NCBI RefSeq assembly: GCF_027594425.1
Contig: NZ_CP115159.1
Location: 3,185,001-3,249,000, forward strand
DNA: 64,000 bases
Source of the DNA: Zunongwangia sp. HGR-M22
GTDB lineage: Bacteria; Bacteroidota; Bacteroidia; Flavobacteriales; Flavobacteriaceae
Reading direction: 5' to 3'
Shown: piece by piece, positions 47,933-62,596 of the stretch
How positions within the stretch are numbered: position 1 is the first letter of the stretch
How the letters are laid out: every line of letters starts with the position of its first letter
Notes under the pieces: generated by a model
Told to the model about the DNA's origin: nothing
The model's input: the letters and a program-made list of their open reading frames with translations, nothing else
Database searches by the model: none
Made by a program: the position numbers and the translations under genes

Positions 47933-49015
47933 TTAACTATCCAAAATAGTTTGCTGGTGATTAATTGATTCCTGATGAACGGCTTTAAATAATTTTAAAA
48001 CAAACTCTTCACTTAAACCTACCTGCTCTCCTTCTAAAACCATTTTTCCTAAAATCTCATTCCATCGCTTAGTTTGAAGAATGGCTACGTTCTGTGATTT
48101 TTTCACATGACCTATATCTTCAGAAATTTTCATACGTTTTGCTAAAAGCTCGATCAATTGATTATCTGCGATATCGATTTTTGCTCTAAGGTTTTGTAAT
48201 TTATTTTGGTAATCCTCACTTTCAGAAATTTCTTTTCTTATAACAAGATCTTTCATGATCTGTACTAATGTAGCAGGAGTTATTTGCTGTTTAGCGTCAC
48301 TCCATGCATTATCTGGATCCCAATGAGTCTCAACCATTAATCCGTCGAAATTAAGATCTAGCGCAGTTTGGCAAAGATCAAAAATAATATCACGACGCCC
48401 TGCAATATGCGAAGGATCTAAAATTAAAGGCAAATCTGGAAATTTGTTTTGCAGTTCGATTGCAATTTGCCACTCTGGATTATTACGATATTTTGTTTTC
48501 TCGTAGCTGGAAAAACCTCTATGAATTACACCAAGATTTTTAATATCTGCAGTGTACATACGCTCTACTGCGCCTAACCATAACGCTAAATCTGGGTTTA
48601 CCGGATTTTTAATTAAAACAGGCTTATCTGTTCCTTTAAGTGCATCTGCGATTTCTTGGATCATAAAAGGAGAAACTGTTGTTCTGGCGCCAATCCAAAG
48701 AATATCGATATCATGTTTTAAAGCTAACTCTACGTGATGCGGATTTGCAACTTCTGTAGTGGTTAACATCCCGGTTTCTTCTTTGGCCTTTTGTAACCAT
48801 TTTAAACCTAAAGCACCAACACCTTCAAAGTTTCCTGGTCTTGTTCTTGGTTTCCAGATTCCGGCACGTAAAACTGTTGCATCGGTATCTTTTAACTGAT
48901 GAGCGATTTTTAACACCTGCTCTTCAGTCTCTGCACTACATGGCCCTGCGATTACCAACGGATGATCTAATCCGAATGCGTCTAACCAGTTTCTTAATTC
49001 TTTCTTGTTTTCCAT
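47933..49015 (-). CDS. bifunctional DAHP synthase / chorismate mutase
   Basis: A 360-residue fusion. Residues 1-265 are a DAHP synthase of the KdsA-like type (VIAGPCSAETEEQ, RAGIWKPRTRPGNFEG, LILDPSHIAGRRD); residues about 270-360 form a type II chorismate mutase (LRAKIDIADNQLIELLAKRMKISEDIGHVKK). It catalyses both the first step of the shikimate pathway and the branch step to prephenate, and the mutase often serves as the feedback-sensitive part. It is the fourth and last gene of the Phe/Tyr operon, 10 bp after tyrA. Confidence 0.94.
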   Translation of the reverse strand: MENKKELRNWLDAFGLDHPLVIAGPCSAETEEQVLKIAHQLKDTDATVLRAGIWKPRTRPGNFEGVGALGLKWLQKAKEETGMLTTTEVANPHHVELALKHDIDILWIGARTTVSPFMIQEIADALKGTDKPVLIKNPVNPDLALWLGAVERMYTADIKNLGVIHRGFSSYEKTKYRNNPEWQIAIELQNKFPDLPLILDPSHIAGRRDIIFDLCQTALDLNFDGLMVETHWDPDNAWSDAKQQITPATLVQIMKDLVIRKEISESEDYQNKLQNLRAKIDIADNQLIELLAKRMKISEDIGHVKKSQNVAILQTKRWNEILGKMVLEGEQVGLSEEFVLKLFKAVHQESINHQQTILDS

Positions 49016-49025
49016 GATAAAAAAT

Positions 49026-49874
49026 TTAGCTAATTCCGTTTAAAATTGATTTAATATGATTTGTACGTTCCATTTCATTGTACACCTCGCCAAATTCGTC
49101 GTTGGCGATTAAGTCTCTAAAAGAGCTTAAATTCTGAATATATTCATTTAAGGTTTCCAGCACGTTTTCTTTATTCTGCTGAAAAATGGGCGACCACATC
49201 GCCGGCGAACTTTTTGCCAGCCGAACAGTTGAAGCAAATCCACTTCCCGCCAAATCGAAAATATCACGCTCGTTTTTCTCTTTTTCGAGCACTGTTTTTC
49301 CCAGCATAAAAGAGCTGATATGCGATAAATGCGATACATAAGCAATATGGCGATCGTGAGACTCAGGATCCATATATCGAATACGCATGCCTATTCTTCT
49401 AAAGATTTCCATACCTCGCTCCTGAAGTTTAAAAGCTGTTTTCTCTACTTCACAAACGATATTGGTCTTTTCCTTATATAAATCTTTTATAGCCGCTGAA
49501 GGGCCAGAAAATTCGGTCCCGGCAATCGGGTGTGCCGATAAATAATTTCTACGTTTTGGATGATCTTTTACTGCTTCACATAATTTGAATTTTGTAGAAC
49601 CGGCATCGATTACCAAAGTATCATCACCGGCATGATCTAAAGCCTCAGATAAGACTTTAATACTAATATCTACAGGCACTGCCACAATCGCTACATAACT
49701 ATCGGCCAGATCTTCCATCTTACCTGCTTTATCGATAAATCCAATCTTTAAGGCTTCCTTTACATGCCCTTCGTTCTTATCGATACCAAAAATGGTACTT
49801 TCAGGGAAAGATTCTTTAATTGCCAAAGCAAACGAACCACCAATAAGGCCTACTCCTATTACACTTACTTTCAT
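49026..49874 (-). CDS. tyrA: prephenate dehydrogenase
   Basis: A 282-residue NAD(P)-dependent enzyme. MKVSVIGVGLIGGSFALAIK is the Rossmann motif; HPIAGTEFSGP holds the substrate-binding region with the catalytic His; RIRYMDPESHDRHIAYVSHLSHI is the second conserved block. It converts prephenate to 4-hydroxyphenylpyruvate for tyrosine. Its ATG overlaps the stop of the aminotransferase gene by four bases. Confidence 0.93.
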   Translation of the reverse strand: MKVSVIGVGLIGGSFALAIKESFPESTIFGIDKNEGHVKEALKIGFIDKAGKMEDLADSYVAIVAVPVDISIKVLSEALDHAGDDTLVIDAGSTKFKLCEAVKDHPKRRNYLSAHPIAGTEFSGPSAAIKDLYKEKTNIVCEVEKTAFKLQERGMEIFRRIGMRIRYMDPESHDRHIAYVSHLSHISSFMLGKTVLEKEKNERDIFDLAGSGFASTVRLAKSSPAMWSPIFQQNKENVLETLNEYIQNLSSFRDLIANDEFGEVYNEMERTNHIKSILNGIS

Positions 49875-51016
49875 CCTTTTATTCGTTTAATGGCTTCATC
49901 TACGTTTTTCTCGTCTGTACACAGTGAAAAACGAATGTAGCCCTCTCCCATATCTCCAAAAATAAATCCGGGAGCGGTAAAAATGCTGTGCTCATGTAAA
50001 AGACCATCTACAAACTCTTCAGAAGTTTTTCCTTCAGGCACTTTGCACCAAATAAACATCCCTGCCTGCTCTTTTCCCGGCGTACATTCTAAAGCTTCAG
50101 CTAATTCTAGAATTTTAGCCCTTCGGCTTTTATAAATAGCATTCATAGAATCAAACCAGTCCTTCTCTAATTTCAATGCTTCAGTAGCACCGGCCTGTAC
50201 AGGATAAAACATACCGCTATCCATATTGGTTTTCACTTTTAATACCGTATCGATATTTTTTGCGCTTCCGCTAAGCATCCCAACACGCCATCCTGCCATA
50301 TTAAAACTTTTGCTTAAACTATTCAGTTCCAATGTAACTTCTTTAGCTCCTTCAACCTTTAAAATACTTTTCGGGTTTTCATTCAGGATAAAACTATACG
50401 GATTATCATTTACAATAAGGATTTGATGCTTTTTTCCAAAAGCTACCAATTGCTCAAAAACTTCATCTGTAGCTGATGCTCCTGTTGGCATATGCGGATA
50501 ATTAACCCACATAATTTTCACTTTACTCAAATCCTGCTGTTCTAATTCGTCAAAATTCGGCAACCAGTTTCCTTCTTCATTTAGATCATAAAAAACCGCC
50601 TTTGCACCAACCAATTTTGAAACCGAAGTATAGGTAGGATATCCTGGATTAGGAATTAAAACCTCATCTCCTTCATTTAAATAAGCCATAGAAATATGCA
50701 AAATCCCTTCCTTACTTCCCATTAATGGAATCACCTCAGACTCTGCATCTAATGATACCTGATAATACTTACGATAGAACCCGGCAATCGCATTCCTAAA
50801 ATCAGCAGTTCCTTTATAAGGCTGATATTGATGCGCACCATTTTGAGTTAATCCTTCATTTAAGGCGGCAATCACCTGTGGCGGTGGCGGTAAATCTGGA
50901 CTACCAATTCCTAAATTGATAATGGGTTTACCTGCGGCCTGCAAGGCACGAACTTCTCTTAATTTTGAAGAGAAATAGTACTCTTTTACATGTTCTAACC
51001 TATTGGCTGGTATCAT
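49871..51016 (-). CDS. class I/II aminotransferase of the Phe/Tyr operon
   Basis: A 381-residue PLP enzyme. NPGYPTYTS, NYPHMPTGA, and the lysine motif NSLSKSFNMAGWRVG that forms the Schiff base identify fold type I aminotransferases. By context it should convert phenylpyruvate and hydroxyphenylpyruvate to Phe and Tyr; an aspartate or prephenate aminotransferase is the alternative. It lies 2 bp after pheA and overlaps tyrA. Confidence 0.88.
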   Translation of the reverse strand: MIPANRLEHVKEYYFSSKLREVRALQAAGKPIINLGIGSPDLPPPPQVIAALNEGLTQNGAHQYQPYKGTADFRNAIAGFYRKYYQVSLDAESEVIPLMGSKEGILHISMAYLNEGDEVLIPNPGYPTYTSVSKLVGAKAVFYDLNEEGNWLPNFDELEQQDLSKVKIMWVNYPHMPTGASATDEVFEQLVAFGKKHQILIVNDNPYSFILNENPKSILKVEGAKEVTLELNSLSKSFNMAGWRVGMLSGSAKNIDTVLKVKTNMDSGMFYPVQAGATEALKLEKDWFDSMNAIYKSRRAKILELAEALECTPGKEQAGMFIWCKVPEGKTSEEFVDGLLHEHSIFTAPGFIFGDMGEGYIRFSLCTDEKNVDEAIKRIKG

Positions 51017-51018
51017 TA

Positions 51019-51843
51019 TTAAACGTTGTTTTTATATGTTCCAAAAATTCTTAATTGCTCGGTCATCATTCCCAAAACTTCCATAGCTTTAGAAAATCGC
51101 TCGTAATCACCGAAAGTGATATCTATAAAAAAGCTGTATTTCCAGGGAGTTTCAATAATTGGCATACTTTGGATCTTGGTCATGTTAAGATCAAAATCAC
51201 GCATAATATTTAATACTGAAACTAAACTCCCGGTACGGCTTTCTAACTCAAACTTCAAAGAAGCTTTATCTATCTTCTCTCCGTTAGGCTCTTTTTTAGT
51301 TTTACTGATAATTAAAAATCGAGTAGAATTACTCTTTTTTGTATGAATATCTGAAGCCAAAATATCCAGTCCAAAAATTGAAGCCGCTGCAGTGCTGGCA
51401 ACAGCCGCTACATGCTTTGATTGTTTTTCTGAAATTCTTCTGGCAACCTCCGCAGTATCTGTATCTTCTATTAATTTAATATTGGGATATTTTTTGAAGA
51501 ATTCTTTACACTGCAATAAAGCCATTGGGTGAGAATATACTTTTTTAATCTGGTCGATCTGTTGCCCTTTTAAGGCCATCATATTCATTGCAATTGGGAT
51601 ATAATGTTCACCAACCACATGCAGATCATTTTCATCGATCAATGCATAATTAGGAAGAATCGATCCTGCTATAGAATTCTCGATCGCCATCACAATTTCC
51701 TGGGTTTCTCCGGCAACCAGACTTCTTACCAGTTCCTGAAAAGACATACATTCCAAAATCGCTACATCCTCACCATAATATTGCTGAGCAACCAAGTGAT
51801 GGAAAGATCCCTGAATTCCCTGTATTCCTATGACTTTATTCAT
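51019..51843 (-). CDS. pheA: prephenate dehydratase
   Basis: A 274-residue monofunctional enzyme. IQGIQGSFHHLVAQQYYG and ENSIAGSILPNYALI belong to the catalytic domain, followed by the TDTAEVARR and NSTRFLIISK motifs. The C-terminal ACT domain (LKFELESRTGSLVSVLNIM, near residue 195) should bind Phe for feedback control. It converts prephenate to phenylpyruvate. It is the first gene of the operon, and its ATG is only 15 bases after the terminator of a Phe/Tyr-codon attenuator, so transcription is probably set by charged tRNA-Phe and tRNA-Tyr. Confidence 0.94.
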   Translation of the reverse strand: MNKVIGIQGIQGSFHHLVAQQYYGEDVAILECMSFQELVRSLVAGETQEIVMAIENSIAGSILPNYALIDENDLHVVGEHYIPIAMNMMALKGQQIDQIKKVYSHPMALLQCKEFFKKYPNIKLIEDTDTAEVARRISEKQSKHVAAVASTAAASIFGLDILASDIHTKKSNSTRFLIISKTKKEPNGEKIDKASLKFELESRTGSLVSVLNIMRDFDLNMTKIQSMPIIETPWKYSFFIDITFGDYERFSKAMEVLGMMTEQLRIFGTYKNNV

Positions 51844-51857
51844 TCAAAATTTGATAT

Positions 51858-51891
51858 AAAAAAAAGTCCCGATTTTTAGATCGAGACTTTT
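51858..51891 (-). terminator. attenuator terminator before pheA
   Basis: On the minus strand AAAAGTCTCGAT pairs with ATCGGGACTTTT (one U-G pair) around a six-base loop and is followed by more T to give eight T in a row. Its left arm (TCTCGATCT, 51886-51878) can pair instead with AGATCGGGA at 51931-51923, which is the antiterminator alternative. Confidence 0.85.
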
Positions 51892-51922
51892 ATATAATAT
51901 TGTTTGCTTAATTACATACCAT

Positions 51923-51931
51923 TCCCGATCT
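51923..51931 (-). promoter_or_regulatory. antiterminator segment (region 2) of the pheA attenuator
   Basis: AGATCGGGA, directly after the leader stop codon, is complementary over all nine positions (one G-U) to the left arm of the terminator. A ribosome sitting at the leader stop codon would cover it and favour termination; a ribosome stalled at the Phe/Tyr codons leaves it free. Confidence 0.8.
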
Positions 51932-51991
51932 CTATTCCTTAAAAAAGAAATAAAAATAAAAGAATGCGTTCCAAGTAAATAAGTTGTTCAT
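51932..51991 (-). CDS. Phe/Tyr-rich leader peptide of the pheA operon
   Basis: A 19-codon ORF, ATG to TAG, reads MNNLFTWNAFFYFYFFFKE: seven Phe, two Tyr and one Trp, with the run FFYFYFFF near its end. It lies in the leader of the pheA-aminotransferase-tyrA-DAHP synthase operon, followed immediately by an antiterminator segment and a terminator. This is the layout of ribosome-mediated attenuation as in the E. coli pheA and pheST leaders, here with Tyr codons added, which fits an operon serving both amino acids. A TACTTTAG element (52018-52011) could be the -7 promoter sequence. No homologue is needed for the assignment; it rests on codon content and position. Confidence 0.85.
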   Translation of the reverse strand: MNNLFTWNAFFYFYFFFKE

Positions 51992-52238
51992 CTGTTCGTT
52001 ATTACGCTGACTAAAGTATAATTATATTTTAATATTAAAAACCATTTTTATATTTTTTTTGAGATAATCTTACTTTTTACGAATCTTTTTATATTTAAGT
52101 TTTTTCAGAAGAAATCTTGCAGCGAATACAATTTTAACCAGGGTGTTTTTAAATAATAAATATTAAAACCAAAAAATCAGTTTTAATAAAGTGTGCGTTA
52201 ATACTCTAAACCTGTTTTTACTGCGCCAATTTTATGCT

Positions 52239-52246
52239 TACTTTTG
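52239..52246 (+). promoter_or_regulatory. candidate gldA promoter (-7 element)
   Basis: TACTTTTG matches TAnnTTTG perfectly, 16 bases before the gldA ATG at 52263; TTTT at 52216-52219 lies 19 bases upstream at the -33 position. The stretch 51992-52238 between the attenuator and this element holds no ORF. Confidence 0.42.
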
Positions 52247-52262
52247 GCCTAAAGCTTCCAAC

Positions 52263-53183
52263 ATGTCGATTTCAGTAGAAAAAATATCAAAATTTTATGG
52301 GGATCAAAAAGCCCTTAACCAGGTTTCCTTTTCTATTGAAAAAGGTGAAATTGTTGGTTTTCTTGGTCCAAACGGTGCTGGTAAATCTACATTGATGAAA
52401 ATTTTAACCGGTTATTTACAAGCTTCAGAAGGAAAAGCAACTGTAAATGGATTTTCTGTAGAGCATCAGCTTCACGAGCTACAAAAAAGTATTGGCTACC
52501 TACCAGAACATAATCCTTTATATACTGAAATGTATGTTCGGGAATATTTGGGCTTTAATGCAAAAGTTTACGGAATCACAAAAGAACGTATAGAAGAGGT
52601 GATTAAATTAACCAATCTTACTCCCGAAGCTAATAAAAAAATCGATCAGCTTTCTAAAGGTTATCGCCAGCGAGTTGGTTTGGCGGCGGCTTTATTGCAC
52701 GATCCACAGGTTTTAATTTTGGATGAACCAACCACGGGACTGGATCCTAACCAGCTTGTAGAAATTCGTAGTCTGATAAAAAATATCGCCAAAAACAAAA
52801 CGATTTTTCTTTCTACTCATATTATGCAGGAAGTTGAAGCGCTTTGTGATCGCGTGATTATTATTAATCATGGCGAAATTATCGCCAACCAAAAACTAAC
52901 CGATCTTCGTAAAGGCCAGGAACAAATTATTGAAGTTGAATTTGATTATCGTATTGAAATAGTCGCGCTGCAAAAACTCCCGCATCTAAAACAAGTAAAA
53001 AACCCTGCTGGTTTTGTGTATGAGCTTACATTTACCACGTCTGAAGATATGCGCCCGGCGGTTTTTGATTTTGCCCATGATAATGGACTAAAAACACTTC
53101 AGCTTAATCAAAAAACTAAAAATCTGGAAAGTTTATTTACGGAGCTGACTTCTATCCCCCCAGCCCCCGAAAGCGGAGTTTAA
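52263..53183 (+). CDS. gldA: gliding motility ABC transporter ATP-binding protein GldA
   Basis: The ATG at 52263 (MSISVEKISKFYG) is chosen over an upstream frame start at 52191, since family members begin here and a promoter element lies just before it. The product has 306 residues. Walker A is GPNGAGKST, the signature LSKGYRQRVGLAAAL, Walker B VLILDEPTTGLD, switch His STHIM. Length and the C-terminal region (TTSEDMRPAVFDFAHDNGLKTLQLNQ) match GldA, which with GldF and GldG is needed for gliding in Flavobacterium johnsoniae; gldF/gldG are not adjacent here. The last 10 residues (SIPPAPESGV) come from a repeated sequence also found 500 bp downstream. Confidence 0.87.
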   Translation: MSISVEKISKFYGDQKALNQVSFSIEKGEIVGFLGPNGAGKSTLMKILTGYLQASEGKATVNGFSVEHQLHELQKSIGYLPEHNPLYTEMYVREYLGFNAKVYGITKERIEEVIKLTNLTPEANKKIDQLSKGYRQRVGLAAALLHDPQVLILDEPTTGLDPNQLVEIRSLIKNIAKNKTIFLSTHIMQEVEALCDRVIIINHGEIIANQKLTDLRKGQEQIIEVEFDYRIEIVALQKLPHLKQVKNPAGFVYELTFTTSEDMRPAVFDFAHDNGLKTLQLNQKTKNLESLFTELTSIPPAPESGV

Positions 53184-53750: not shown

Positions 53751-56700
53751 TTACTTTTTTTCTGAAAGTTTTAAAATATCACCAAATACACCACGAGCGG
53801 TTACCGCAGCGCCAGCTCCGGCTCCCTGAATTACAATTGGGCGATCACCATACGATTCTGTATAAATTTCGAAAATAGAATCGGCTCCTTTTACTTGCCC
53901 CAAACTACTTTCATCGGGTACAGAAACGAGTTTTACTTCCAATTCACCTTTGTCCTGCTGTAAATCGCCAGATAGATCACCGATATATCGCAATACGTGA
54001 TTTGGCTCTTGCTGCTCTTTTATCTTTTGATAAGTAGCGTCTAATTCTTCCAATCTCGACACAAAGGTTTTTGCATCGCCACCTCTCAGATCTTCTGGCA
54101 CCAAATTATTTATTTTCACATCACTGAATTCATTTTTCAGCTCTAATTCTCTTGCCAAAATCAATAATTTACGGCCAACATCATTTCCGTTTAAATCTTC
54201 ACGCGGATCGGGTTCGGTAAATCCTTTATCAATCGCCTCTTTTAAAACACTGCTAAATTTTCGATCTTCCTCAGAAAAAGTATTGAATAAATAACTTAAT
54301 GTTCCTGAAAACACGCCACGAATTCGGGTAATATTTTCTCCGGAAAGGTGTAAAATTCGAATAGTATCGATTAACGGTAACCCGGCACCAACATTGGTTT
54401 CATATAAATACTGCTTTTGATTTTTCTCTAAATTCTCCCGTAATGCTGAATAAAAATCGAAACTTAATGTATTTGCAATTTTATTTGAAGAAACCAGATC
54501 AAAACCATGGTCTACCAGTTTGTTATAATTTTGAACAAAAGCTTCACTCGCTGTATTATCGACTGCGATCAGGTTTTCTAAATGAAATAATTTGGTGTAA
54601 TTAATCACTTCATCTAAAGAAGCTTCCTGCTCTGTGTTTTCTAGCTGTGTTTTCCAATCTTCGCCAATTCCGGTAGCATGAAGCAATAGTTTTCTGGAAT
54701 TAGATACGGCAAAAATATTCAGTTTTACCTTTTTACGCTCTTCTATTGAAGCTGCCGAATTTAAAATCTGATCGATTAAAGTTCCTCCAACCGTTCCATG
54801 GCCAAAAATCGCAATATTGATTTTTTTACAAATCTCAAAAATCTCTCCGTGAATTACGTTTAACGCTTTGTTAAGCTGTGATTTTTTCACCACCAAACTC
54901 ACGTTTTTCCCGGTTACCGTATTGTTAAAAAGCAAAGGAACGATCTGGTTTCTTATCAGCGCATCGTAAGGTTTATGAAACGTACTTAAATCTTGCCCAA
55001 CTATTGAAATCACAGAAACATCATCTACTACCGAAATTTTATTCACATCTTTTGAATAAAAATCACTCTCAAATTCTCGCTCTAAAGCTTTTACCGCACG
55101 TACGGCATTTTCGGCATCTACCACCAAACCAATTCCACGTTCCGAAGAACCCTGAGAAATAATACTCACACTTATTTGTGCATCACCAAGCGGACGGAAA
55201 ATCCTCGCATCCACACCAGATTTACCAAGTAAACCACGACCTTCTAAATTCAGCAAAGCCGTATGTTCTAAAACCGAAAGGGATTTCATTCCTTCCTTAT
55301 TCGGTTTTGCTGTAATTAAAGTTCCCTGATTATCGTTATTAAATGTATTCAGGATTCTAAGCGGAATATTTTTTTCGATTAACGGAATAATGGTTTTGGC
55401 GTGCAAGATCGTCGCTCCAAAATTCGCAAGCTCGTTCGCTTCGTTATAGGAAAGCTGGTCGATTCGTTGTGCACTCGGCACCAAATCTGGATTCGCGGTG
55501 TAAATTCCGTCTACATGTGTATAATTCTGCAACTCTTCAGCATCCAGATAATTTGCAATTAATGAAGCGGTGTAATTACTACCATTTCTACCTAAAGTTG
55601 TGGTTTCGTTTTTAGCGTTCGAGCCAATAAAACCGGTAACGATATTCACCGTTTTGCCATTAAATTCTTCAAAATGCTGCAAAACATTTTCTTTTGAAAG
55701 TGCATCCAATGGCTGTGCATTCCCAAAAATATCATCGGTTTTAATCAATTTACGAGTATCGGTAAAATTGGTTTTGTAACCACGTTTTTTCAGAATTTCA
55801 GTGATTAATTTAGCCGACATTAATTCGCCCTGAGATAGTAACTGATCTTTGATCTTCGCGCTGTAATCACCAAGCAAACGAACACCTTCAAGTAGTTTTT
55901 CGATATTTTTAAATTCTTCGGAAAAATCTACAAAATCATATTCTGAGATCTGGTAAGCTTTAAATTTATCGAAAGCTGAAGCAAAATCTTCATTCTCAGA
56001 AGCTTTTTCCAATAAATTTTCAAGCTGATCTGTGGTTTTTCCTCGTGCTGAAACCACTACCGCAATACGTTCTTCATTTTTGATTTTTTCTTCAATAATT
56101 TCTAAAACCGTATTGATACCTTCTCCGTTGGCTAGAGATTTTCCGCCAAACTTTACTACTTTCATCTTATTTGCTTTTTGAAAAATGCCTGCAATTATAT
56201 TTTCCAGTTGTTTAAATTCGATTAAAAATGCATCGTGACCGTGTAGCGAATGTATTTCCCCATACGTCACTTTATTGCTGCTTTGCGCCAGTTGTTTATA
56301 AGTCTCCCTGTTTTCTTCCGCAGTAAAAAAGAGATCTGAATCTACCCCGATAATGCAGATATTCGCATTGATACTTTCTAAAACCTTATCCAGCTCTGGC
56401 CTGCCACGAGAAACATCGATTGTTTTTAAAAGCTGATTCATTAATTTATAAGCGCCCACCTGAAATCTTTCCTGAAGTTTTGCACCGTGGTGTAGCAACC
56501 AGCTTTCTACATTAAAAACCTGAAGTTCCTCATTTTGGGTCCTTTTAAAACGGGATTTAAAAGATTCGGGCGTGCGGTAACACAGCATCGCGTGCATACG
56601 AGCATCGTGCACCGGATTTTTAGAATTATTTAAAAACAGCTCCTGAATCTGGCAATTCGCGATTAGCCAGTCGGTCGATTTCCAATCGGTCGCCACGGTA

Positions 56701-57137
56701 ATTAGATTATCGGTAATCTCCGGACTTAAAGCTGCCATTTCCCAGGCGATACCGCCTCCAAGCGAACCACCAACCAATGCAAAAAGATGCTCGATTTTTA
56801 ACGAATTTAAGCCTAACAGAAAGATCCTGGCGATATCTCTCGCTACAAAATCTTTATAGTTTTCGATTAGGATTCCGTCGTAACCATTCCCGGGAACATT
56901 AAAAGCCAGGATGGTATATTTATCGGTATCGATACATTTTTCTGGTCCTACAACATCTTTCCACCAACCGGTTTCTCCGGCAACTTCAGAATTTCCCGTT
57001 AGCGCATGATTTATCATCACGATAGGCGCCGAATGTAACGGCTGGCCAAACACATGATACGACAAGGTGATATCTTGAGTTACGCCACTTAACGTGGTAA
57101 AATTATGAAGTTGTACTTGTAATAAATCCTGTTTCAA
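53751..57137 (-). CDS. homoserine O-acyltransferase (MetX-like)-aspartokinase-homoserine dehydrogenase fusion
   Basis: An 1128-residue three-activity protein. Residues 1-322: MetX-type alpha/beta-hydrolase with the triad Ser125 (GGSLGGG), Asp268 (VDSDLFF) and His301 (LHGHDAF), which acylates homoserine for methionine synthesis. Residues 325-770: aspartokinase (MKVVKFGGKSLANG) with ACT regulatory segments. Residues about 772-1128: homoserine dehydrogenase (IAIFGHGTVGG, NKIANTLSF, DPREDLNGNDVGRK). Thus the first and third steps of the aspartate pathway are joined to the first step of the Met branch. A Met codon at 56165 (residue 325), exactly at the domain border, could start a separate ThrA. 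It is preceded by a SAM-I riboswitch. Confidence 0.92.
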   Translation of the reverse strand: MKQDLLQVQLHNFTTLSGVTQDITLSYHVFGQPLHSAPIVMINHALTGNSEVAGETGWWKDVVGPEKCIDTDKYTILAFNVPGNGYDGILIENYKDFVARDIARIFLLGLNSLKIEHLFALVGGSLGGGIAWEMAALSPEITDNLITVATDWKSTDWLIANCQIQELFLNNSKNPVHDARMHAMLCYRTPESFKSRFKRTQNEELQVFNVESWLLHHGAKLQERFQVGAYKLMNQLLKTIDVSRGRPELDKVLESINANICIIGVDSDLFFTAEENRETYKQLAQSSNKVTYGEIHSLHGHDAFLIEFKQLENIIAGIFQKANKMKVVKFGGKSLANGEGINTVLEIIEEKIKNEERIAVVVSARGKTTDQLENLLEKASENEDFASAFDKFKAYQISEYDFVDFSEEFKNIEKLLEGVRLLGDYSAKIKDQLLSQGELMSAKLITEILKKRGYKTNFTDTRKLIKTDDIFGNAQPLDALSKENVLQHFEEFNGKTVNIVTGFIGSNAKNETTTLGRNGSNYTASLIANYLDAEELQNYTHVDGIYTANPDLVPSAQRIDQLSYNEANELANFGATILHAKTIIPLIEKNIPLRILNTFNNDNQGTLITAKPNKEGMKSLSVLEHTALLNLEGRGLLGKSGVDARIFRPLGDAQISVSIISQGSSERGIGLVVDAENAVRAVKALEREFESDFYSKDVNKISVVDDVSVISIVGQDLSTFHKPYDALIRNQIVPLLFNNTVTGKNVSLVVKKSQLNKALNVIHGEIFEICKKINIAIFGHGTVGGTLIDQILNSAASIEERKKVKLNIFAVSNSRKLLLHATGIGEDWKTQLENTEQEASLDEVINYTKLFHLENLIAVDNTASEAFVQNYNKLVDHGFDLVSSNKIANTLSFDFYSALRENLEKNQKQYLYETNVGAGLPLIDTIRILHLSGENITRIRGVFSGTLSYLFNTFSEEDRKFSSVLKEAIDKGFTEPDPREDLNGNDVGRKLLILARELELKNEFSDVKINNLVPEDLRGGDAKTFVSRLEELDATYQKIKEQQEPNHVLRYIGDLSGDLQQDKGELEVKLVSVPDESSLGQVKGADSIFEIYTESYGDRPIVIQGAGAGAAVTARGVFGDILKLSEKK

Positions 57138-57220: not shown

Positions 57221-57361
57221 ATCAAGAAAAGTTTGTGAGAATAATTCGATGAAGAATCTATCTGTTATCTATCCGGAAATCGGTAGAACGTAGCACCTTC
57301 TTTGTTGGCAAAGGGTTGCTAAGGCTTCAGCGGGTCTATTCCCTCGGCCTTTCTTGATAAC
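57221..57361 (-). ncRNA. SAM-I (S-box) riboswitch before metX-thrA fusion
   Basis: The minus strand has the S-box core in order: TTATCAAGAAAGG (P1/P2), GAGGGA, GACCCGCTGAAGCC, TTAGCAACC, AAGGTGCTA, and a closing TTTCTTGAT that pairs with ATCAAGAAA to form P1. About 84 bases separate it from the start codon; I saw no clear terminator there, so control may act on translation or by a weak hairpin. The rest of 57362-57592 has no ORF and holds a short repeated motif at 57554-57582. Confidence 0.92.
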
Positions 57362-57592
57362 AATCAGTAAGTTTTTGAACTTTGTCTCTACAAATTACGG
57401 TAATAATTTGCGATCAACCAACATTTTTTTTGAGTTTTAGTTTAGAAGGTAGTAATGAGAATTGAGTAATTAGATTTTTCAGTTAACTGATAATAAAATT
57501 TTATCTCATTCAAAATTTAGAATCTAAAATTCAACATTTTTAATAATCGATTTTCTAAAATCTAACAGCGCCAGCGATCTAAATTCTGATTA

Positions 57593-62442: not shown

Positions 62443-62596
62443 AAACGCTATCAAAAAAGAAGAAAAAGGAAGTCTTGATGTTATCTATCTACGAAAAAAC
62501 GTAGTAGAAGGTAGCACCTTCTCCATTGTACTAGAGACAAAGAGGGTTGCTAAGGTTTCATCGGGTCTAATCCCTCAACCTTTCTTGATAACGCTA
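62443..62596 (-). ncRNA. SAM-I (S-box) riboswitch before metH
   Basis: On the minus strand: TTATCAAGAAAGG, GAGGGA, GACCCGATGAAACC, TTAGCAACC, GAAGGTGCTA, a hairpin TACTACG-TTTTTT-CGTAGATA, and the closing P1 arm CTTTTTTGATAGCG pairing with CGTTATCAAGAAAG. It ends within about 15 bases of the metH start, so sequestration of the start region is the likely mode of control. The gene-free stretch 62597-62918 contains repeat copy B and nothing else recognised. Confidence 0.93.

Follow-up and report, generated by a model that had tools for sequence, protein, structure and literature searches.

In Escherichia coli, pheA is preceded by the Phe-rich leader peptide pheL, and transcription is attenuated in front of the gene. 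A further leader is found in Corynebacterium glutamicum, an actinobacterium. Both are covered in a review (PMC11802643), according to the accessible part of which the second leader, AroR, lies before aroF, contains Phe-Tyr-Phe and controls DAHP synthase by ribosome stalling. For flavobacteria, a structured 5' element has been reported before pheA in Flavobacterium psychrophilum, also present in other genera and without an Rfam match, in a study whose accessible text gives clues that leader peptides attenuate transcription ahead of amino acid operons (PMC9723704). That text gives no leader, stems, covariation or range for the pheA element and does not name pheA as a leader-peptide case. In the same phylum, the cis-regulatory Bacteroid-trp RNA (RF01692) is listed in Table 1 of PMC2864571, and short ORFs reminiscent of leader peptides have been reported in Bacteroides thetaiotaomicron (PMC7366714), as far as the accessible portions of these two papers go. 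The initial annotation of the locus described here, which knew of few, if any, described examples of such attenuators in Flavobacteriaceae, was too strong on this point, given what can be seen of the F. psychrophilum element in print and a Bacteroid-trp match in the same genome. No closer published description of a pheA leader was found in a literature search conducted largely without subscription journals.

The locus lies on the minus strand of the window, i.e. the whole 64,000-nucleotide stretch of the Zunongwangia sp. HGR-M22 genome that was analysed. A leader peptide ORF of 19 codons (MNNLFTWNAFFYFYFFFKE, 51991-51932) extends from an ATG at 51991 to a TAG stop codon at 51934-51932, as initially annotated, and eight Phe/Tyr control codons form a run within it (FFYFYFFF, 51941-51964), as read from the sequence. 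Segment 2, the left arm of the antiterminator (AGATCGGGA, 51931-51923), is located directly 3' of the leader stop codon and pairs with segment 3 (TCTCGATCT, 51886-51878), which serves both as the right arm of the antiterminator and as the left arm of an intrinsic terminator (51858-51891). The terminator consists of a 3:4 hairpin (51891-51862) followed by a run of eight T to 51858, and was identified from sequence, fold and covariation. The nine-position pairing between AGATCGGGA and TCTCGATCT had been proposed before and is correct, one of the pairs being G-U, as is the assignment of TCTCGATCT to the left arm of the terminator; 14 bases separate the last T from the ATG of pheA (51843), a distance formerly given as 15. 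Two features are absent from the first reading, namely an in-frame Trp codon (51971-51973), which is a probable third kind of control codon judging from the sequence and from the frame bias of TGG in relatives, and a 1:2 hairpin (51918-51969), in which the Phe/Tyr codons are paired with segment 2 (arms 51969-51945 and 51940-51918). The latter was obtained from the minimum-energy fold of the 152-nt region (-36.4 kcal/mol, z = -5.0, with none of 200 shuffles equally stable), which contains the terminator and the 1:2 hairpin together.

Upstream of the leader, TACTTTAG (52011-52018, minus strand) is a weak candidate for a -7 promoter element, with one mismatch to TANNTTTG, which we take to be the consensus of this element. 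It is present in all six same-genus loci and in L008, and is not found in L007. In 33 of 126 loci, the 80 nt preceding the leader contain the exact TANNTTTG, compared to 11.1 expected from shuffles, which is a weak signal.

Four genes follow on the minus strand: pheA, encoding prephenate dehydratase (51019-51843; PF00800 above its cut-off, best NCBIfam models below theirs), an aminotransferase gene (49871-51016; named by best hits, with all NCBIfam hits shown below cut-off), tyrA, encoding prephenate dehydrogenase (49026-49874; NF006307 above cut-off), and a gene for a DAHP synthase-chorismate mutase fusion (47933-49015; named by best hits, below cut-off). The four-gene aromatic operon of the initial annotation is thus borne out by domain and family matches, with names taken partly from hits below cut-off. 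Among 20 loci, pheA is followed by DAHP synthase-chorismate mutase in all 20, by the aminotransferase in 14 and by tyrA in 11 (12 with one weak hit); the constant partner is therefore the step common to Phe, Tyr and Trp synthesis. The next upstream ORF in the ORF list (52191-53183) is divergent, on the plus strand, and reads like an ABC-transporter ATPase in sequence.

Judged from the sequences, a ribosome-mediated transcription attenuator is by far the best explanation of this arrangement, and very probably the right one. This reading had been put forward in the initial annotation and is supported by the conservation of the leader, by the tests of the 3:4 and 2:3 stems and by a near-fixed spacing of segment 2, as described below. 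Sequence comparison shows the leader, the exclusive stems, their covariation, the spacing and the operon linkage, and from these we infer where transcription would start and terminate, where the ribosome would stall and which tRNAs would be sensed. RNA polymerase would start upstream of the leader ORF, with a ribosome following it. When aminoacyl-tRNA-Phe (probably also -Tyr, and perhaps -Trp in most family members) is scarce, the ribosome would stall in the control codons; segment 2, starting at about its leading edge, would stay free and pair with segment 3, and this pairing would block the terminator, such that pheA and the genes for the aminotransferase, TyrA and DAHP synthase/chorismate mutase would be transcribed. 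When charged tRNA is plentiful, the ribosome at the stop codon would cover segment 2, and the 3:4 terminator would form 14 bases before pheA. If the leader were left untranslated, the 1:2 hairpin between the control codons and segment 2 would also permit the terminator. The sequence elements by which classical attenuators are recognized are present, including a leader ORF rich in the product amino acids, an intrinsic terminator, and an exclusive antiterminator with compensatory changes.

A leader was called where an ATG-initiated ORF with at least five Phe/Tyr in eight codons was found within 450 nt upstream of pheA. The sample from Flavobacteriaceae, the family to which Zunongwangia belongs, contains 115 genomes, 103 of a first set and 12 more (L177, L184-L193 and L283); a pheA match was present in 102 of the 120 genomes of the search behind most family loci. 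Conservation of the Phe/Tyr leader upstream of pheA in relatives, the first check suggested by the initial annotation, was found in 111 of the 115 genomes: 110 pass the rule, including 11 of the 12 additional ones, and L020 has a leader further upstream (649 nt before pheA, four Phe/Tyr in eight codons). The other four are L062, L071 and L188, which have no leader upstream of pheA by the rule, and L025, whose upstream region ends at a contig edge. The terminator rule was run on the first set; 20 added loci, L283 and 80 named loci were scored by the leader rule. Leader and terminator are both present by rule in 99 of the 103 first-set family genomes, and all 99 leaders passing the rule have a terminator. 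The 80 named loci, nine of which duplicate loci of the first set, include 78 with at least 200 nt upstream; 76 of these pass the leader rule, and the remaining two, both labelled Gelidibacter, have leaders in which four of eight codons are Phe/Tyr. Leaders that start further from pheA than most (285 to 649 nt) were observed in L020, L253, L272 and L276, the last three of which are labelled Gelidibacter.

When distant pheA types are included, the leader rule is satisfied in 129 of the 159 loci that have 300 nt or more of upstream sequence, while its chance level is 157 of 3180 dinucleotide shuffles (4.9%) and 9 of 159 reverse strands. The shuffles indicate that AT-rich sequence sometimes yields Phe/Tyr-rich ORFs, and a terminator unrelated to pheA control could in principle have such a chance ORF in front of it. 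This explanation is extremely improbable, since the upstream ORF (52191-53183) is divergent, such that no upstream transcript needs ending here, and since the leader and the stems are conserved and covary. The codon pattern by itself is unspecific. A seven-codon Phe/Tyr pattern has 8 matches in the same genome; two overlap each other within the leader of pheA, and the other six are not leader-like (by eye, from the frame and the next 70 bases, the terminator rule not being applied). The reversed pattern matches more often (20 matches).

Leaders of this kind also occur beyond the family. Outside Flavobacteriaceae, 31 of 58 first-set loci, spread over a number of families within the order and the class, pass the leader rule and 27 have no leader by it, and 6 of 9 further loci of the class (L194-L202), which we take to be Bacteroidia, pass as well. 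Two leader-positive loci belong to other classes of the phylum (L112 and L113). pheA matches in other classes or of another pheA type were sampled only; none of the 18 sampled loci of other classes (L284-L301) and none of the five loci of another, about 30%-identical pheA type (family f2) has a leader by the rule. No ATG-rule leader is present in any of six genomes of about 0.6 Mb. In one of these (L133), allowing GTG and TTG starts yields an ORF near pheA in which six of eight residues are aromatic; it is not leader-like by eye. No leader was found in L119-L123, an absence that says little because the searched stretch is largely extended reading frame in four of the five. Among 14 rule-negative loci, one of them L020 with its leader further upstream, there was no Rfam match at gathering score. 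Six loci of the class (L104, L105, L145, L147, L149 and L151) have the same pheA type with no rule-passing Phe/Tyr leader within 450-500 nt and no Rfam match, and L152 has a leader with no terminator by rule.

The stems were compared across 127 loci with leader and terminator, obtained from 130 by removing L103 (same genome as L087) and L114 and L125 (terminator mis-called). Covariation was assessed on subsets hand-chosen for variety (43 loci for 3:4 and 52 for 2:3). For the 3:4 terminator, 96.8% of the cells are paired, compared to 22-61% in slid versions, seven of eight pairs show changes on both sides, and none of 500 shuffles is as good on any of five measures; the covariation that the initial annotation proposed to look for in this stem is thus present. 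For the 2:3 stem, the fairer evidence is a permutation test, as the register in the core-pattern alignment and in the covariation test was set by best pairing, which favours structure. The mean duplex energy of segment 2 with its own partner is -11.36 kcal/mol in the 127 loci, compared to -8.07 (sd 0.195) with permuted partners (best of 5000 permutations, -8.88) and -5.57 for shuffled segment 2. The own arm is the best or tied best of all arms in just 10% of loci; the arms resemble one another closely, and the longer GC-rich ones outcompete the rest. In the covariation test, with the register so chosen, 88.2% of the 2:3 cells are paired versus 78.7% after shuffling and 28-51% in slid versions. 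Three of the five measures beat all 500 shuffles, while the number of pairs with changes on both sides (328 of 500 shuffles) and the number of pair types (173 of 500) are not above shuffles. In the core alignment, from which 14 of the 127 terminators outside the core pattern were dropped, one 2:3 position is C-G in 53 and U-A in 52 of 113 loci. The expected 2:3 covariation is thus supported by the permutation and by three of five measures. These data argue that terminator and antiterminator are held by compensatory changes as mutually exclusive stems. Hence both the ORF and the stems, on whose conservation in relatives the initial annotation had staked its reading, are conserved.

In 119 of the 127 loci, the folds show segment 2 paired with the codon run that precedes it. 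Replacing the Phe/Tyr codons by random synonymous ones weakens the fold from a mean of -14.8 to -12.8 kcal/mol (mean z -1.05), with p 0.05 reached in 28 of 127 loci. The third-last codon of the run (-3), when it encodes Phe, is TTC in 76 of 95 cases, whereas TTC makes up 11 of 100 at the last position (-1) and 14 of 95 at the one before it (-2). In 73 of the 76 folds, the C of this TTC has a G further downstream as its partner. Avoidance of long T-runs could contribute to this preference too.

These observations bear on a different way in which a ribosome might be halted in the leader. TnaC is an arrest peptide that senses a free amino acid. A nascent leader peptide could similarly stall the ribosome in response to a free aromatic amino acid, rather than to a shortage of charged tRNA, and a C-terminal stretch like SKRNETLYV is indeed recurrent in one large leader group. 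Nevertheless, leader peptides differ widely among relatives except in aromatic content (many end in KE, RGTGLL or NKS), the recurrent tail overlies segment 2, its RNA being base-paired with the leader in the folds, and the synonymous constraint at codon -3 fits selection on RNA and not on peptide. An arrest peptide is therefore highly improbable, and stalling at control codons for want of charged tRNA remains the preferred reading.

The spacing between codons and stems is consistent with such stalling. Counted from the first base of its A-site codon, a ribosome covers about 11-13 nt further downstream. In 97 of 112 loci, the core of segment 2 begins 12-16 nt past the first base of the final Phe/Tyr codon, and the first base of the stop codon lies from 7 nt before to 17 nt after the first core base in 101 of 112; in the window locus, the stop codon directly precedes segment 2. 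Thus, a ribosome stalled in the run is predicted to leave segment 2 free or nearly so, and one at the stop codon to cover it, which is the geometry of classical attenuators for a footprint of this size.

Between the leader start and the end of the run, TGG is in frame in 76 of 127 leaders, compared to 1 and 12 leaders for the two alternative frames; the corresponding numbers are 71 of 99 versus 0 and 6 within the family, and 5 of 28 versus 1 and 6 outside it. The in-frame Trp codons suggest that all three aromatic amino acids may be sensed, and sensing of Tyr and of Trp is what we infer from the leaders. Flavobacteriaceae belong to a group that mostly lacks Shine-Dalgarno initiation. A plausible, if tentative, proposal is that a single leader in this family integrates the charging of all the aromatic tRNAs, with Trp read ahead of Tyr and Phe, and controls entry into the pathway through the DAHP synthase operon; so conserved a device would imply tight coupling of transcription and translation in such a group.

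Alternatively, an attenuator of the same kind might sense Phe starvation alone, with the Tyr and Trp codons serving to interrupt stretches of U or to give the 1:2 hairpin its shape. A dependence of Tyr codons on tyrA was looked for by comparing operon gene sets with leaders and was not found: all eight loci without a tyrA hit (L165, L173, L174, L176, L177, L179, L180 and L182) keep at least two Tyr codons, such that the Tyr content of the leader does not track tyrA. A quick tree of pheA requires at least 25 gains or losses of Trp (counted without a shuffled baseline), and the Trp codon is therefore not obligatory. AroR of C. glutamicum, with Phe-Tyr-Phe, is reported to respond to Phe limitation and not to Tyr; it belongs to a different operon, and the accessible part of the review mentions no Trp codon in it (PMC11802643). 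The earlier claim that a shortage of charged tRNA-Phe or tRNA-Tyr is sensed accordingly stands in so far as the mixed Phe/Tyr leader is conserved, while Tyr codons need not mean a response to Tyr, as the accessible text on AroR indicates (PMC11802643). Against sensing of Phe alone, Tyr accounts for 15.6% of the leader residues, Trp codons are enriched solely in frame within the family, and all 20 loci examined have a DAHP synthase gene nearby, which makes all three amino acids relevant. We regard sensing of Phe alone as possible, on the doubtful side.

The proposed attenuator with up to three inputs shares its logic with E. coli pheL-pheA (Rfam Phe_leader, RF01859), which likewise combines a Phe-rich leader with attenuation before pheA, as far as the review describes it (PMC11802643). 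In contrast to pheL, the Zunongwangia leader also has Tyr and, as is usual in the family, Trp codons, and the operon includes DAHP synthase. RF01859 is not matched, scoring 19.8 bits versus a gathering cut-off of 55. The Rfam search gave no match at the pheA element to Bacteroid-trp (RF01692) or, at gathering score, to any other RNA family; Thr_leader, Phe_leader and Trp_leader matches were below cut-off. The element resembles that of F. psychrophilum in preceding the same gene in flavobacteria, a likeness drawn from gene and description in the accessible text (PMC9723704). The kind of attenuator is thus classical and partly anticipated in print; added here are its anatomy, covariation and range, and the in-frame Trp codon as a probable third input. 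They provide an alignable anatomy for the RNA element before pheA in flavobacteria, with a reach beyond the family, and material for an RNA family model. They also make two questions testable: whether translation and transcription are coupled closely enough for classical attenuation in these bacteria, and whether one leader reads the supply of Phe, Tyr and Trp jointly, at the step from which all of them are fed.

The same genome probably contains a Trp attenuator beside the aromatic one. Elsewhere in it, a Bacteroid-trp match (RF01692, 66.2 bits; L163, 1540-1602, minus strand) carries an ORF (MKNSIANTWWWSNLRSNFVS) with Trp-Trp-Trp (WWW), and a hairpin with a T-run follows on the same strand by eye.

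The pheA-locus product shares 98% identity with its counterparts in Z. mangrovi and Z. atlantica, and the same-genus genomes G003 and G001 contain the same stretches. Within the window, a SAM riboswitch (57262-57363, minus strand, 77.7 bits) precedes an ORF of 1128 aa (53751-57137, minus strand) that combines an alpha/beta-hydrolase part (MetX-like by reading) with amino acid kinase and homoserine dehydrogenase domains. A second SAM riboswitch is located at 62478-62594 (minus strand, 80.4 bits).
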